Part shown: piece after piece, positions 4,028-47,010 of the stretch
Layout of the letters: the number at the start of each line of letters is the position of its first letter
Position numbering within the stretch: the stretch's first letter is position 1
Origin: Bradyrhizobium liaoningense
GTDB taxonomy: Bacteria; Pseudomonadota; Alphaproteobacteria; Rhizobiales; Xanthobacteraceae
Direction: 5' to 3'
NCBI RefSeq assembly: GCF_018130825.1
Contig: NZ_JAFCJS010000004.1
Coordinates: 186,001-250,000, forward strand
Length of the DNA stretch: 64,000 nt
Translations under genes and position numbers: made by a program
Notes under the pieces: model-generated
Told to the model about the DNA's origin: nothing
The model's input: only the letters and a program-made list of their open reading frames with translations
Databases searched by the model: none

Positions 4028-4249
4028 AACGAAGCACCGGCCGAGCCGCGCATTTACCTCGCCGCAGCCGCGTTCACACTCCCCTAACCATACGGAACCA
4101 TACGCCACGTCAAAACCCCCGAATGGTCCCCCCTTGCCGCATCTCGGCCCCTTTGCTGTCAAAATCGGACGCCCTGATGCGAGCTGCCTTACAGACATCG
4201 TCGTGCGGGGGACACTCGCGCTGCGCTCAACGCGAACAGGGGAACAACG

Positions 4250-19244: not shown

Positions 19245-21665
19245 CTACGCCACCGCGCCCAGATCCTTGGCCGCCTTCCAGTTGCGCCAGAAGTCGTGCG
19301 GCATCTGGATGTGCGTGCTGCCTAAGAACGAGAACGCATCGTTGACGGCGTTGGAGAAGGCCGGCACGCCGCCGACATTCGGGCTCTCGCCGACGCCCTT
19401 GGCGCCGATCGGGTGATGCGGCGACGGGGTGACGGTAAAGTCGGTCTCCCAATGCGGCGTCTCCACCGCGGTCGGCATGAAGAAGTCCATGAACGATCCG
19501 GTGACGACGTTGCCTGTTTCGTCGTAGCGGATCTCCTGGCCCATCGCGATCGCGAAGGCTTCTGTGAGGCCGCCATGCACCTGGCCCTCGATGATCATCG
19601 GGTTGATGCGGGTGCCGCAATCGTCGAGCGCATAGAAGCGCCGGACCTTGTACACGCCGGTGTCGACGTCGATGTCCATCACGCAGAGATAGGCGCCGAA
19701 CGGATAGGTCATGTTCGGCGGATCGTAATAGCTGACCGCTTCCAGCCCCGGCTCCATGCCCGGCGGCACCGAATTGTAGGCCGCCCAGCAGATATCCTTC
19801 ATCGACATGAATTTTTCCGGCAGGCCCTTGACCCGGAAGCCATCGATGTCCCATTCGAGGTCATCCTCGTGGACCTCGAGCTTGTAGGCCGCGATCATCT
19901 GCGCCTTGGCCTTGATCTTTCGCGCAGCCATCGCGATCGCCGCGCCGGCAACCGGCGTCGAGCGCGAGCCGTAGGTGCCGAGCCCGTAGGGCGCGGTGTC
20001 GGTGTTGCCCTCCTCGACCTGGATGTTGTCGGCGGGAATGCCGATCTCGGTGGCGATGATCTGGGCCCAGGTGGTCTCGTGGCCCTGGCCCTGGCTCTTG
20101 GTGCCCATGCGCGCAATGCCCGCACCGGTCGGATGCATCCGGATCTCGCATGAGTCGAACATGGCAATGCCGAGGATGTCGCAATTCTTCGACGGGCCGG
20201 CGCCGACGATCTCGGTGAAGAAGGAGACTCCCAGCCCCATGATCTCGCGGGTCTCGCCGCGCTTGAAGGCTTCGCGCTTCTCGGCTTGCTCCTTCCGGAG
20301 CGCGGCGTAGCCGGTCGTCTCCATCATCTTGCGCATGGCGGTGTGGTAGTCGCCGGAATCGTATTCCCAGCCCAGCGCCGAGTGATACGGGAACTGCTCC
20401 GGCTTGATGAAGTTCTTCAGCCGCAGCTCGGCCGGATCCATGTTGAGCTTCTGCGCCAGGATATCCATGGCGCGCTCGATGCAATAGGCCGCCTCGGTGA
20501 CGCGGAACGAGCAACGGTAAGCGACGCCACCGGGCGCCTTGTTGGTGTAGACGCCATCCACCGCCAGATGCGCGGTCGGGAAGTCATAGGATCCCGTGAC
20601 GATGTTGAAGAAGCCGGCCGGCCATTTCGACGGGTCGGCGCAGGCATCGAACGCACCGTGATCGGCGAGCACGTGCACGCGCAGCCCCGTGACCTTGCCA
20701 TCCTTCGTCGCAGCGATCTCGGTGGTCATGTGATAGTCGCGCGCGAACGAGGTCGCGGTCAGGTTCTCGATGCGGTCCTCGACCCATTTCACCGGCTTGC
20801 CGGTGACGATGGAGGCCACCGCCGCACAGATATAGCCGGGATAGGCGCCGACCTTGTTGCCGAAGCCGCCGCCGATGTCCGGCGCAATGACGTGGATCTT
20901 CTGCTCAGGCAGCTTTGCGATCAGCGCCACCACGGTGCGGATCACATGCGGAGCCTGGAACGTGCCGTAGATCGTCAGCTCGCCCTTGATCTTGTCGAAG
21001 GAGCAGACGCACTGGCAGGTCTCCAGCGGCGATGGATGAGTGCGGTGATAGGAGATCATCTCCTTGATCTTGACCTCGGCCTTGTTGAAGGCCGCATCGG
21101 TCAGCTCCTTGTCGCCGACGGTCCACTCGAAAATGTGGTTGTCGTGCTTGCGCGGGCCATGCGCACCGGACATCTTGCCGACGAGGTCCTCGCGCAGCAC
21201 CGGCGCATCCTTGTCCATCGACTTGAAGGGATCGACCAGCGGCGGCAGCGGCTCGTATTCGACGATCACCTTGTTGATGCCGTCGTCGGCGGCGTAGCGA
21301 TCGGTCGCGACGACGAAGGCGACCTCCTGGTTCTGGAACAGCACCTTGCCGTCGGCCAGCACCATCTGCACGTCGCCGGCAAGCGTCGGCATCCAGGCGA
21401 GGTTGACGGTCTTCAGCGTCTCGGCGGTGATGACAGCGAGCACGCCCGGCACTTTCAGCGCTTCGCTGTCGTCGATCTTCTTGACGCGCGCATGCGGATG
21501 CGGCGAGCGGACGAAGTCGCCGTGCAGCATGCCCGGCAGCTTGACGTCGTCGACGTAATTGCCCTTGCCCTGCGTGAAGCGGATGTCCTCGACGCGCTTG
21601 CGCTTGCAGCCCATGCCTTCGAGTGCGGCTTCGCGTTGTTCCCGCGTGGGAGTCATGTCGTTCAT
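19245..21665 (-). CDS. coxL: CoxL, large Mo-Cu subunit of form I CO dehydrogenase
   Basis: CoxL carries the Mo-Cu site that oxidises CO to CO2. This 806-aa xanthine-oxidase-family protein has the form I active-site loop AYRCSFR, with the copper-binding cysteine at residue 385 (Cys388 in Oligotropha), and the catalytic glutamate in KGVGESPN at residue 760 (Glu763 there), so the offset is constant. The cofactor-binding segments [11 protein letters not shown] and [10 protein letters not shown] are also present. Form II enzymes have AYRGAGR instead, so this is a genuine CO dehydrogenase candidate. Its ATG overlaps the coxS stop by four bases. Confidence 0.96.
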
Positions 21666-22162
21666 TCTGCGGCCTCCCGGAATTCCACGCCGTTGATCTT
21701 CGCGGCGGCGTATTGAATGGCTTTGACGATGTTCTGGTAGCCGGTGCAGCGGCAGATGTTGCCGGAGATGCCCATCCGGATCTCCTGCTCGCTCGGCGAG
21801 GCGTTTTCCTTCAGAAGCCGATGCGCCCGCATGATCATGCCGGGCGTGCAGAAGCCGCATTGCAGGCCGTGCATCATGCGGAAGCCTTCCTGCAGCGCGG
21901 ACAGCGTGCCGTCTGCATTGGCCATGCCTTCGACGGTGGTGATGTCGCTACCCTCAGCCTGCACCGCGAACATGGTGCAGGACTTCACCGACATGCCGTC
22001 GATATCGACGGTGCAGGCACCGCAATGGGTGGTCTCGCAGCCGATATGAGTGCCGGTCATCTCGAGATTTTCGCGGATGAAATGCACCAGCAGCGTGCGC
22101 GGCTCGACGAGGCCTTCGACCTCGGCGCCGTTCACCTTCATGGTGACGTGTGTTTTGGCCAT
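21662..22162 (-). CDS. coxS: CoxS, small 2Fe-2S subunit
   Basis: CoxS passes electrons from the Mo site to the flavin. The 166-aa protein has the plant-type 2Fe-2S domain with Cys42, Cys47, Cys50 and Cys62 ([13 protein letters not shown]) and the second, alpha-helical domain with Cys102, Cys105, Cys137 and Cys139 (QCGFCTPG and NICRC). All eight cluster ligands are present. It lies 11 bp after coxM and overlaps coxL, giving the order M-S-L of form I operons. Confidence 0.96.
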
Positions 22163-22173
22163 CGATCCCTCCC

Positions 22174-23037
22174 TTACTTCGCCCGGCTAGCTGCGCGCTG
22201 AAGCGCCCGCGTCACCATGATGCCGCCGACATGCTTGCGGTATTCGACCGGACCGCGTGCATCGGCGGCCGGCGCCATGATCGCTTCGGCTGCTGCAGCG
22301 GCCTTTCTCAGCGTGGCCGCATCGAGGCTGGTGCCGATGACGGCCGTCGCCGCGTCGGTGGCGAGCAGCGGCGTCTCGTGCACGTTGGTCAGCCCGATCG
22401 AGCAGGTTGCGACCTTGCCGCCGGCCATGGTGAGGACGACGGCGGCGGCCGCAGTGGCGTAGTCGCCGACCTTGCGCTTGAGCTTTTCGTAGGCGTAACC
22501 GTGACCGGCTGCGGGTACGGGCACCGAGACAGCGGTCAGGATCTCACCGGGCTCGAGCGCGGTGAAATAGGCGCCCTGGTAGAAATCGGCGGCGGGAACA
22601 TCGCGGGCGCCGCCCAAGCCTTCGAGGCGGTAGATCGCCCCCAGCGTCATCATCAGCGCCGGCATGTCGTTGCCGGGATCACCATTGGCGACGTTGCCGC
22701 CGATCGTGCCGCGATAGCGCACCTGCGGGTCGGCGATCAGCAGGGCCGCCTCATGCAGGATCGGCATGGACTTGGCGACGTCCTCGGAGGCCAGCAGCTC
22801 GTGCTGGGTGGTCATCGCCCCGATGACGAGAGTGTTGCCGTCGTGGCGGATGCCCTTGAGGGCGGCGATGCCGTGCAAATCGACCAGATGCGCGGGGGTG
22901 GCGAGCCGAAGCTTCATCATCGGCACCAGGCTGTGCCCGCCGGCCAGCGGCCGTGCCTCCTCGCCGAGGTCGGACAAGAGTTTGACGGCGTCGGCGACAC
23001 TCGCCGGCCGGTGATAGCTGAATGAGCCCGGGATCAT
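22174..23037 (-). CDS. coxM: CoxM, medium FAD-binding subunit
   Basis: CoxM binds FAD and hands electrons to quinone. The 287-aa protein has the two FAD-contact motifs of the family, [11 protein letters not shown] (residues 32-42) and [14 protein letters not shown] (about 110-123), and a C-terminal CO-dehydrogenase flavoprotein domain. The start [14 protein letters not shown] follows GGAGGAGACG, an excellent ribosome-binding site. The 218-bp region upstream, before coxC, holds a repeat and a set of direct repeats and is the likely structural-operon promoter. Confidence 0.95.
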
Positions 23038-23126
23038 CGTCTCCTCCCACAATCGTCCTTGGCGCGTGACGGCGCGGACGTTGGAGGGGACGGTCTCTCT
23101 GGACCGGGCGGGCCGCAATCATTCGG

Positions 23127-23173
23127 GCACGAAGGCGGGCATTTTGCACGAAATGCGGGTCTGAACGCACGAA
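23127..23173 (-). promoter_or_regulatory. Three GCACGAA direct repeats upstream of coxM
   Basis: GCACGAA occurs at 23127-23133, 23146-23152 and 23167-23173 (TTCGTGC on the coding strand), spaced 19 and 21 bp start to start, 90-136 bp upstream of the coxM start. The last two extend to GCACGAAwTGCG. Direct repeats about two helical turns apart are the usual target of LytTR DNA-binding domains, and CoxC next door has one. Binding is inferred. Confidence 0.45.
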
Positions 23174-23207
23174 TTGCGTCAGGGGTGTCGACGAATGGGG
23201 CGGCTCT

Positions 23208-23239
23208 TCACCTCTCCCCGCAAGAGCGGGGCGAGGGAG
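23208..23239. repeat. CTCTCCCCGC inverted repeat
   Basis: CACCTCTCCCCGC / GCGGGGCGAGGG hairpin just after the coxC stop on the minus strand, of the same family as 3890 and 35041. It may end the coxC transcript before coxM. Confidence 0.6.
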
Positions 23240-23255
23240 TGAGAGAGTGGAGTTC

Positions 23256-24458
23256 CTAAGCCTGCCGACGGTTCGCCAGTCCCAACCGCGCCTTTACCTC
23301 GGCGATCTTGGCGCGACTCACCGGCACCCGGTGCGGCGACGGGCCGTCGAGTTCGAGCACCGCGCCATCGCCCTCTTTCCGGACCAGCGCGACATGGGGG
23401 ATGGCGACGATATGGCTGCGGTGCACCCGCAGGAACAACGAGGGATCGAGCTGCGCTTCCGCTTCCGAGATCGACCAGGGGCACATCCGCTCACGGGTGC
23501 CGTCATGGACGCGGGTGTAGTGCGCGTCTGCCCGAACACTGCGGACATTGGCCGTCTCGATGAAGTGTGTCCCGTCGGCGCTCTCGACCGGCAGCCTGGG
23601 AACCGGCGCCCGCGGCGGCTGTCCGAGGCCACCGAGCGGCGCCATCGGCCGCGGAGCTGCAGCCGGCGCAGCAATCAGCTCAATGGCGGCCGCCGCGACC
23701 GGCGAAGCAACCGGTTCGGCGGCAGTAGAGTTCAAAGTCTGACGCCGTTGATCGGGAACCAGGGACAGCAAGAAGCCGGCTGCGATGACGAAGCACAGCA
23801 CGGCAACGATGATCGACAGAATTTGCTGCGACGCGGCAAGGCTGCCGCCGGCGTGGTGATGCACCGCGCTCGTCAGCGGCGCGAAATGCATGCCGAGCAT
23901 CGCGGTGTAATGCATGCCGGAGACGGCGATGCCGAAAACAATCGAGCTGACGATCAGCCGGACGCCCTCCTGCTGCGCCAGAAAGGCGCGCAGGCCGCCA
24001 TAGGCGGTGACGATCGCCACCACCACCGACAGCGCCACCATGGTCTTGTCGTGCACGATGCCGAACGGCCCGGCCAGTCCATGGATGCCGACATAATGCA
24101 TGCTGGCGATACCGACGCCGAGCAGGACCGCCGACGAGGCTACCCGCTTCAACGTGGGCTCACCGATCGAGACAAAGAAGAGAGAGATGCCGACCACCAA
24201 TGCGCAGATCAGGAACGAGCTGATGGTGGGAAGCACCAGATAGACCGTGTCAGGCGGCAGCGGCGCGGCCAGCATGCCGACGAAATGCATGGTCCAGATG
24301 CCGACGGCCAAAAATGCCGCCGCCCCCGCGAGCAAAATGCGGTTACTGACACCGGGCGTGTTGCGGATGCGAGCAGCAAGCGCAAAGCCGGTATAGCCAC
24401 CCAGACTCGCGATCGCCACAGAGAGCGCAACGAGATAGGGATCGTGTCCTTCGAACAT
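23256..24458 (-). CDS. coxC: CoxC, MHYT-LytTR membrane sensor/regulator
   Basis: The 400-aa protein has about seven membrane helices (residues 8-245) containing the MHYT sensory repeats WTMHFVGM, IASMHYVGI and VSGMHYTAM, whose Met/His residues are thought to bind copper and sense a gas. A Pro/Ala linker follows, then a C-terminal LytTR DNA-binding domain (about 300-395, with SLFLRVHRSHIV). This is the layout of CoxC/CoxH of Oligotropha. It lies upstream of coxM in the same direction, so it probably senses CO or redox state and regulates coxMSL. Confidence 0.9.
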   Translation of the reverse strand: MFEGHDPYLVALSVAIASLGGYTGFALAARIRNTPGVSNRILLAGAAAFLAVGIWTMHFVGMLAAPLPPDTVYLVLPTISSFLICALVVGISLFFVSIGEPTLKRVASSAVLLGVGIASMHYVGIHGLAGPFGIVHDKTMVALSVVVAIVTAYGGLRAFLAQQEGVRLIVSSIVFGIAVSGMHYTAMLGMHFAPLTSAVHHHAGGSLAASQQILSIIVAVLCFVIAAGFLLSLVPDQRRQTLNSTAAEPVASPVAAAAIELIAAPAAAPRPMAPLGGLGQPPRAPVPRLPVESADGTHFIETANVRSVRADAHYTRVHDGTRERMCPWSISEAEAQLDPSLFLRVHRSHIVAIPHVALVRKEGDGAVLELDGPSPHRVPVSRAKIAEVKARLGLANRRQA

Positions 24459-24507
24459 GATCTTGTCGACCGCCCCGTCTCCACGGCACGGCCTCCTCCC
24501 GCCGCCG

Positions 24508-24537
24508 ACTTTACAGGGACGGCGGCGGGATTGACAA
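24508..24537 (-). promoter_or_regulatory. Candidate coxC promoter with palindrome
   Basis: On the minus strand TTGTCA (24532-24537) and TAAAGT (24508-24513) are 18 bp apart, a plausible sigma-70 promoter. An 11-bp perfect inverted repeat, TCCCGCCGCCG (24497-24507) and CGGCGGCGGGA (24520-24530), overlaps the spacer and the downstream side, and could be an operator or a leader hairpin. Confidence 0.4.
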
Positions 24538-24571
24538 TCAGCGGCGTGTGAAGCCGGTGGCTTGGCGCGCT

Positions 24572-24691
24572 GCAAGACCCTCATGGTGAGCAGGCGCGCA
24601 GCGCCGCCTCGAACCGTGCAGGCCAAGACGCAACATCCGGGCCTTCATCCTTCGAGACGCTTGCTTCGCAAGCTCCTCAGGATGAGGAGCG
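24572..24691. repeat. Dispersed repeat with CTTGCTTCGCAAG core
   Basis: It contains the inverted pair TTCATCCTTCGAGACGCTTG / CAAGCTCCTCAGGATGAG with central TTCG loop, plus a left part with CTCATGGTGAGC. This is a typical Bradyrhizobium repeat. It lies between ribH and coxC. Confidence 0.65.
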
Positions 24692-24708
24692 AGAGCCTTG
24701 TCGCTCCG

Positions 24709-25266
24709 TCACACGATCCCCGCCGCAACCTGGCCGCGCAGGCGCTCCAGGCCGTGCAACGTCTCCGCACAAGCAGTCGCGACCTCGACGCCCTTGATGG
24801 CAAAATGCCTGCGGAAGAAGTCGTAGTGCACCTCGGTCTCGTGGAATTGCTGCGGCGTCAGCACGGCCGAGAACACCGGCACCTCGGTGCGCAGCTGCAC
24901 GTCCATCAGCGCCTTGATCACGGTGTCGGCGACGAACTCGTGCCGATAGATGCCGCCGTCGACGACGAGGCCGGCGGCAACGATGGCGGTGTAGCGCCGG
25001 GTCTTGGCGAGCACTTGTGCGTGCAGCGGGATCTCGAACGAGCCCGGCACCTCGAACACGTCGACATGGGTGAGGTGGCGCGCCTCGGCCTCCTTCATGA
25101 AGGCGATGCGGGCCTCCTCGACCACGTCGCGGTGCCAGCAGGCCTGCACGAACGCCACCCGCTGCGGTTTGGCGAAGCGCGGATGCTCCGGCACCGGATC
25201 TCGTGGAACCGGCGGTTGGGTAACTTCGGAAGTTTCGGCTTGGGGATCTTGCAACATCTGATTCAT
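24709..25266 (-). CDS. ribH: Lumazine synthase, RibH2 type
   Basis: Lumazine synthase condenses the 5-amino-pyrimidinedione with dihydroxybutanone phosphate, the penultimate step of riboflavin synthesis. This 185-aa protein has VPGSFEIPLHAQVLA and LVVDGGIYRHEFVAD, the variant found in the decameric RibH2 of Brucella and Mesorhizobium rather than the canonical RibH. The start MNQMLQDPQAE gives a short variable N-terminus. It is transcribed alone behind an FMN riboswitch, so it is probably repressed by FMN. Confidence 0.92.
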   Translation of the reverse strand: MNQMLQDPQAETSEVTQPPVPRDPVPEHPRFAKPQRVAFVQACWHRDVVEEARIAFMKEAEARHLTHVDVFEVPGSFEIPLHAQVLAKTRRYTAIVAAGLVVDGGIYRHEFVADTVIKALMDVQLRTEVPVFSAVLTPQQFHETEVHYDFFRRHFAIKGVEVATACAETLHGLERLRGQVAAGIV

Positions 25267-46170: not shown

Positions 46171-47010
46171 TCAGCGCTTGGTGATCACGGCTTCCAGATA
46201 TTCGCTGTGCACGACGATCGTGCCGTCGTCGGCATGGTTGAACTCGCCGAGCAGCGCCAGCAGATCGCGCTTCAGCGCCGCCTGGCCGTCCGCGTCGAGC
46301 GCGGCAAACGCCTTCAGCGTAGGTCCGTAGAAGGTCTTGAAGATCTCGAGCCAGTGCTCCGGCGAGCGATAGCGGAACACGAACATGCGCGGCTCGGCGG
46401 CGATCTCGGAGGCCTGGCCAGCGAACATCTCTTCAAGCCGCGCCTGTGTGCCCCACAATGCCGGCGACTTCACGCCCGCTGGCGGCGGCAGATGCTTGCC
46501 GATGGTCTTGAACAGCTGGCCGATGAAACCCTGCGGCGTCCAGTTGGCGAGGCCGATCTTGCCGCCGGATTTGCAGACCCGCGCGAGCTCGGAGGCCGCC
46601 TTGTCCTGGTCCGGCGTAAACATCACGCCAAAGGTCGAGAGCACGACGTCGTAGCTGGCGTCGGCAAACGGCAGCGCTTCGGCATCCGCTTCGCGGAACT
46701 CGATCATGAGATGTTCGGCCGCCGCGCGCTCGCGCCCGCGCTTGAGCAGCGCCGGCACGTAGTCGGTGGACGTGACGTCACACCAGCGCCGCGCCGCGGC
46801 CAGCGTCGCATTGCCGTTGCCGGCGGCGACGTCCAGCACCTTGCTGCCGGCGCGTATGTCGAGTGCCTCACAGAGCTGTTCGCCGACGATCTGCAAGGTG
46901 GTGCCGACGACGGCATAGTCGCCCGACGACCAGGCGCCGTGCTGGCGCTGCTTGACGGCGGCAAGATCGGGTTGGGCTGCGGTTGGCTTGAGCGCGGCGG
47001 ATGTCGACAT
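46171..47010 (-). CDS. Class I SAM-dependent methyltransferase
   Basis: The 279-aa protein has SAM motif I VLDVAAGNGNATLAAAR (about residues 58-74), the acidic motif II DVTSTDYVPALLKRG, and motif III VVLSTFGVMFTPDQ. It belongs to the methyltransferase-11/UbiE-like group. The C-terminal part (LPPPAGVKSPALWG onwards) is the substrate region; the substrate is not known. It is divergent from the wHTH-TPR gene. Confidence 0.85.
   Translation of the reverse strand: MSTSAALKPTAAQPDLAAVKQRQHGAWSSGDYAVVGTTLQIVGEQLCEALDIRAGSKVLDVAAGNGNATLAAARRWCDVTSTDYVPALLKRGRERAAAEHLMIEFREADAEALPFADASYDVVLSTFGVMFTPDQDKAASELARVCKSGGKIGLANWTPQGFIGQLFKTIGKHLPPPAGVKSPALWGTQARLEEMFAGQASEIAAEPRMFVFRYRSPEHWLEIFKTFYGPTLKAFAALDADGQAALKRDLLALLGEFNHADDGTIVVHSEYLEAVITKR

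Follow-up and report, generated by a model that had tools for sequence, protein, structure and literature searches.

A conserved array of direct repeats before coxM in Bradyrhizobium liaoningense, a candidate operator of the membrane regulator CoxC

The coxC-coxM region

The window, a 64,000-nt stretch of the Bradyrhizobium liaoningense genome, carries a cox cluster on its minus strand in the order coxC, coxM, coxS and coxL, followed by genes resembling coxD-coxG (Table 1). The gene upstream of coxC encodes lumazine synthase and is not coxB-like. CoxC matches the profiles of the MHYT domain (9.2e-34, three stretches) and, at its C-terminus, of the LytTR domain (4e-16). Among solved structures, none matches CoxC at E 0.001. 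The coxM product shares 67.6% identity with coxM as annotated in Afipia OM5, and coxM is the first gene behind the candidate operator. The large subunit contains the AYRCSFR motif, which we take to be the mark of form I. Only two LytTR genes are present in the 8.08-Mb genome, coxC and a gene at C1:953243.

Table 1. Features of the cox cluster (window positions).
Feature	Position	Strand	Remark
coxL, large subunit with AYRCSFR	19245..21665	-	reading frame
coxS, small subunit	21662..22162	-	reading frame; name from position and resemblance
coxM, CO dehydrogenase medium subunit, 287 aa	22174..23037	-	reading frame
ribosome binding site GGGAGGAG of coxM	23041..23048	-	read by eye from the sequence
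-10-like element GACCGT	23090..23095	-	spacer 17; 2/6 bases of TATAAT
-35-like element TTGCGG	23113..23118	-	starts 15 nt after first T of box 3; putative
box 3, TTCGTGC	23127..23133	-	19 bp after box 2
box 2, TTCGTGC within CGCATTTCGTGCAA	23146..23152	-	21 bp after box 1
box 1, TTCGTGC within CGCAATTCGTGCG	23167..23173	-	core TTCGTGC in 89/106 loci
possible weak fourth box (box 0), TTCGTC	23190..23195	-	22 bp upstream of box 1
coxC, MHYT-LytTR membrane regulator, 400 aa	23256..24458	-	domain profile matches

The 218-bp gap between coxC and coxM (23038-23255) contains three copies of GCACGAA on the plus strand, with steps of 19 and 21 bp. On the coxM strand the copies read TTCGTGC, with steps of 21 and then 19 bp, and are termed boxes 1 to 3. 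The first-pass annotation had described the three copies, their spacing, their distance of 90–136 bp from the coxM start codon (ATG at 23037, minus strand) and the longer GCACGAAwTGCG common to the last two. All of this was found as described. A weak box 0, which reads GACGAA on the plus strand, had been overlooked.

The single word GCACGAA is unremarkable. It occurs 18 times in the window (12.7 expected) and 11 of 100 shuffles reach as many. In contrast, any 7-mer present three times at steps of 18–22 bp was obtained in 1 of 20,000 dinucleotide shuffles of the 218-bp gap, which argues against chance copies. A by-product of chance or base composition would agree with the ordinary frequency of the single word and with a second 7-mer triple of such spacing in the window (CCGACGA, 46883-46929, steps 21 and 19 bp). 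Shuffles of the complete 64 kb hold on average 0.085 triples of this kind, with a maximum of 2 (n=200). One further TTCGTGC triple exists in the genome (C1:346233, steps 21 and 18) and falls within an 872-aa reading frame at FVLPQPVFVPIPVFV.

Conservation of the array

Loci were retrieved by searching for CoxC. The search of 397 genomes of the order gave 72 matching, of which the best 30 of 72 loci were used, and the search of genome contigs contributed the best 80 of 238 relatives. In 105 of these 110 coxC loci coxM lies behind coxC; L009, L026, L054, L078 and L100 were left out, having no coxM on the retrieved piece. Addition of the plasmid loci of Afipia OM5 and Bradyrhizobium SK17 (L128, L130) resulted in 107 loci. 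These include the locus of the window itself (L003) and the near-copies L004/L056, L005/L052 and L110/L112.

The expectation that the repeats recur in orthologous cox loci held for the array and failed for its exact spelling. Only 10 of 105 gaps contain an exact TTNNNGC triple, which at first looked like a failure. By eye, box 3 is degenerate, and a three-part weight matrix was therefore used. With this matrix an array of CGCAnTTCGTGC, CGCAnTTCGTGC and a weaker third box precedes coxM in 106 of 107 coxC-coxM loci, the sole miss being L022. The steps between boxes are 20–21 and 18–21 bp, with 21/19 in 76 of 106 loci. Box 2 is TTCGTGC in 54 and CTCGTGC in 18 of the 106 loci. Box 3 is mostly nnnGTGc, its commonest forms being TCCGTGC (18/106) and TTTGTGC (15/106), and several distant loci owe their match to boxes 1 and 2, box 3 being poor.

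This matrix was trained on its own test loci, and the search was repeated with held-out loci and controls. The window served as seed, the 31 loci in which CoxC is at least 80% identical were used for training and the 76 others for testing. The array scored above 99.9% of 2280 shuffles in 71 of 76 loci (threshold 3.4; shuffle maximum 12.5). In bands of falling CoxC identity the yield was 28/28, 23/23, 1/1, 4/4 and 15/20; the five failures belong to the 20 loci with CoxC below 40% identity. Among the control regions, no array was found in 74 regions upstream of coxC or in 74 coxM coding starts, and the other strand gave 1/74. Thus, coxC is probably not under such a site in those loci. The array of the window scores 66.3, compared to 2.2 for the best non-overlapping placement in the window.

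The array is kept in different families of the order and also on a Rhodobacterales plasmid. In L080, where 2.4 kb separate coxC and coxM, the array remains with coxM, and so does box 0 although coxC is distant. Of the loci in which CoxC is at least 60% identical, 78 of 82 carry the motif nGTC (GGTC, CGTC, AGTC or TGTC) at a distance of exactly 22 nt ahead of TTCGTG in box 1; below 60% the figure is 4 of 24. TNNGTC is present at this position in 65 of 106 loci. Two records titled Frankia and Arenimonas (L052, L116) contain a coxC identical to or nested in those of Bradyrhizobium and Rhizobium. These records are probably mislabelled or misbinned.

Co-occurrence with CoxC and other possible readers

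Among 265 genomes of the genus, CoxC is present in 104. A two-box pattern was found once each in 65 of these 104 genomes and in none of the 161 genomes without CoxC. All 65 sites lie 2636–2937 bp from the coxL motif. The reversed two-box pattern is absent from the 265 genomes, and a relaxed search gave one site in the 8.08-Mb genome. Five genomes of the genus have the coxL motif and no CoxC; these are probably chance matches, since the reversed control matches at a similar rate. No clear case of coxM without CoxC was found in the genus and the links of the site to CoxC and to coxM are thus poorly separated there. Co-occurrence with CoxC and conservation from several families of the order to a Rhodobacterales plasmid contradict an origin of the copies by chance or base composition, which we regard as practically negligible.

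A plasmid of Sinorhizobium meliloti AK83 (L129 6216-6520) holds coxC and an intact array with a TTG at +26. The annotation shows no cox genes behind this array; the next gene is short and annotated as EAL. It may be a leftover promoter or one rewired to c-di-GMP.

The site could also be read by a LytTR protein other than CoxC, for example an RcoM or the only other one encoded in the genome. The RcoM operator of Paraburkholderia xenovorans LB400 comprises three direct repeats TTCNNGCA with gaps of 12–13 bp and steps of 20–21 bp (PMC11347149). As in the window, triple direct repeats lie upstream of cox genes and are read by a LytTR protein; RcoM, however, is a soluble haem-PAS activator and not a membrane MHYT protein (PMC11347149). 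Compared to the TTCNNGCA triplet, the 7-bp cores of the window have gaps of 14 and 12, the final A is present in box 2 alone, and, in contrast to the RcoM operator, the box includes a conserved CGCA flank. Canonical LytTR sites are described there as pairs of 9-bp direct repeats 10–13 bp apart (PMC11347149). The window shares with these the direct repeats about two turns apart and differs in having three to four boxes instead of two.

In Paraburkholderia aromaticivorans, TTCGTGCA, TTCGAGAA and TTGCTGCG precede coxM at steps of about 20 bp, and a LytTR protein of RcoM size, labelled RcoM in this analysis, is encoded near coxM. The array of this species scores -15.2, no better than shuffles, and the resemblance is one by eye. 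It nevertheless indicates that the core word is not exclusive to CoxC. Neither LytTR protein of the B. liaoningense genome looks like a soluble RcoM, but Pfam does not mark the sensor part of RcoM; its silence on PAS says little, as it reports none for the Paraburkholderia protein either.

The second LytTR protein (L002 853-1803, near C1:953243) has an N-terminal half that is hydrophobic by eye, and the protein has no Pfam match other than LytTR. It is perhaps another membrane LytTR regulator, of the 'MHYE' kind named in PMC11347149. Its apparent membrane location and the Paraburkholderia array would speak for a different reader. The genome has just these two LytTR genes, the two-box pattern is confined to genomes with CoxC, coxC adjoins the site in nearly all loci, and S. 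meliloti AK83 retains coxC and the site with no annotated coxM behind them. Reading of the site by another LytTR protein is accordingly considered very improbable.

Putative coxM promoter

A promoter-like TTGCGG-17-GACCGT, overlooked in the first-pass annotation, is located between the copies and coxM. Its -35-like element has 3 of the 6 bases of TTGACA. A consensus promoter scan of 22900-24800 gave no match in the coxC-coxM gap, and we infer PcoxM from the alignment of loci alone. The offset of the TTG from the first T of box 3 is 15 nt in 63 loci, 26 nt in 31 and 27 nt in 3. Between 8 and 39 nt, every remaining offset occurs in 8 loci at most. When the loci are aligned on the TTG, a spacer of 17 brings A2 and T6 of a -10 element into register in 78% of the 63 loci of the 15-class and in 79% of the 34 loci of the 26-class; any other spacer from 14 to 20 does so in at most 13%.

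Ten loci have neither TTG offset, namely L022 and nine loci of one deep coxC clade (L021, L023-L025, L028-L032). The loci of this clade show two strong boxes 20 bp apart, a poor box 3 and no phased TTG, which suggests a simpler operator. Just before coxC a further promoter-like TTGTCA-18-TAAAGT is observed (24508-24537, minus strand), with a mirrored match on the other strand. It is possibly the coxC promoter.

At least 8 switches between the 15 and the 26–27 classes occur on a quick CoxC tree in which 34 of 100 inner branches are weak; its starred branches force 5 and 4 switches (two labels). Promoter exchange between strains may be the source of these switches. The two offsets are one helical turn apart, which argues for a face-specific contact with RNA polymerase. 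A protein-polymerase contact would need a fixed helical face; mere blocking would not.

CoxC might bind the boxes and activate PcoxM by recruiting RNA polymerase from upstream of the -35 element; the weak promoter would then fire only with CoxC in the appropriate state. An 8-nt interval without overlap separates box 3 from the putative -35 element downstream, the offset is 15 or 26–27 nt with repeated switches between the two classes, and the promoter matches the consensus poorly, all of which would suit an activator. A weak promoter with an operator just upstream of -35 is equally typical of activated promoters. In Afipia, however, CO releases CoxC and relieves repression (PMC11347149), which is the wrong direction for CO-dependent activation. 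Furthermore, Afipia PcoxB seems to be of the same geometry. Activation of PcoxM by bound CoxC is on balance regarded as unlikely.

Comparison with PcoxB of Afipia carboxidovorans

CoxC of Afipia carboxidovorans OM5, a membrane MHYT-LytTR protein, binds PcoxB via its LytTR domain, and binding needs three direct repeats TTNNNGCN (PMC11347149). It represses PcoxB, as measured in E. coli; CO releases it from the DNA and copper is needed (PMC11347149). In the available part of that report no description of a site before Afipia coxM was found. Between the two CoxC proteins, the LytTR domains share 44% identity over 103 aa. As at PcoxB, the window contains three direct repeats that fit TTNNNGCN (TTCGTGCG, TTCGTGCA and TTCGTGCC). 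In the window they are spaced by two helical turns (21 and 19 bp) and the MHYT-LytTR gene adjoins them. In both species the regulator is a membrane MHYT-LytTR protein and the genes concerned are cox genes. In the window, on the other hand, the site is located before coxM and behind coxC, and a coxB-like gene upstream of coxC is lacking.

The held-out matrix was applied to both strands of the Afipia cox locus (13,170 bp). PcoxB ranks first with a score of 11.0, above 99.9% of the 2280 shuffles, whose maximum is 12.5. The coxC-coxM gap ranks second with a score of -0.8, below the held-out threshold of 3.4. Rank 3 overlaps PcoxB and the best score elsewhere is -7.4. The TTG offset is 15 at both Afipia PcoxB and PcoxM.

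The boxes of PcoxB as published, taken from the mutant primers, start at 4189, 4218 and 4244 of the Afipia locus (L128). The published spacers of 21 and 18 bp correspond to steps of 29 and 26 bp, which are not two turns. In the register of the consensus the boxes lie at 4177, 4198 and 4218, with steps of 21 and 20 bp, TTGATG at +15 and, after a spacer of 18 bp, TATCGT. The operator would then abut the -35 element rather than overlap it. The published overlap, which the window does not share, rests on a predicted promoter (PMC11347149). The change introduced into published repeat 1 also affects one base of the CGCA-type flank of model box 2, so that the published loss of binding is compatible with either register. 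A point against the consensus register is that the published probe starts inside its first unit and two flank bases are lost. The comparison leaves the published register open to doubt.

Proposed control of coxM

The domains of CoxC and the array in 106 of 107 loci make a LytTR operator for CoxC the best reading of the repeats, as the first-pass annotation had proposed. That a membrane LytTR protein binds DNA directly, which it had called unusual, has been demonstrated for Afipia CoxC (PMC11347149) and is no longer an open oddity. Comparison of the loci establishes by sequence that the array exists, is conserved, is linked to coxC and stands at a fixed place before a promoter-like element. By analogy, the protein-DNA contact and the sign of control at PcoxM would be those of Afipia PcoxB.

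Most likely, the repeats are an operator of the coxM promoter that is read by the LytTR domain of CoxC and confers CO-relieved repression. CoxC molecules would sit next to each other along one face of the DNA, each on its own box and about two turns apart, on three strong boxes and perhaps a weak fourth. A poor promoter of the sigma-70 type would follow directly downstream. In the absence of CO, CoxC would occupy the site and keep coxMSL and the genes behind it low. Once CO binds to the MHYT copper site, CoxC would let go.

If CoxC binds, repression of PcoxM appears rather likely by analogy with PcoxB; activation, argued from the geometry, would then be conceivable and somewhat doubtful. Repression was measured in E. 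coli at PcoxB and not at PcoxM, which counts against a firm reading. CO-relieved repression is kept as the default for PcoxM. A more far-reaching proposal is put forward tentatively. PcoxM may be phase-locked, with a tethered row of CoxC on four boxes contacting RNA polymerase always from one helical face, at either of two distances a turn apart, so that the promoter would be held or switched on from the membrane. On this view CoxC might have the coxM site, rather than PcoxB, as its ancestral and general target, and the published PcoxB register would need correction.

Significance

This type of control is already established at another promoter, PcoxB of Afipia (PMC11347149). The additions made here by comparing loci are the conserved candidate site before coxM, a box consensus, a phase rule and doubts over the register at PcoxB. 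Among membrane proteins that sense CO and themselves bind DNA, CoxC is the founding case. The comparative data provide this regulator with a clear recognition box and also serve as a check on the published operator register. The spacing rule is testable by insertions. The coxM sites would offer a second, stronger class of targets for CO biosensors. Judged from the loci compared, the general target of CoxC would be the coxM promoter, in Bradyrhizobium, Rhizobium, Mesorhizobium, Shinella, Afipia and others.
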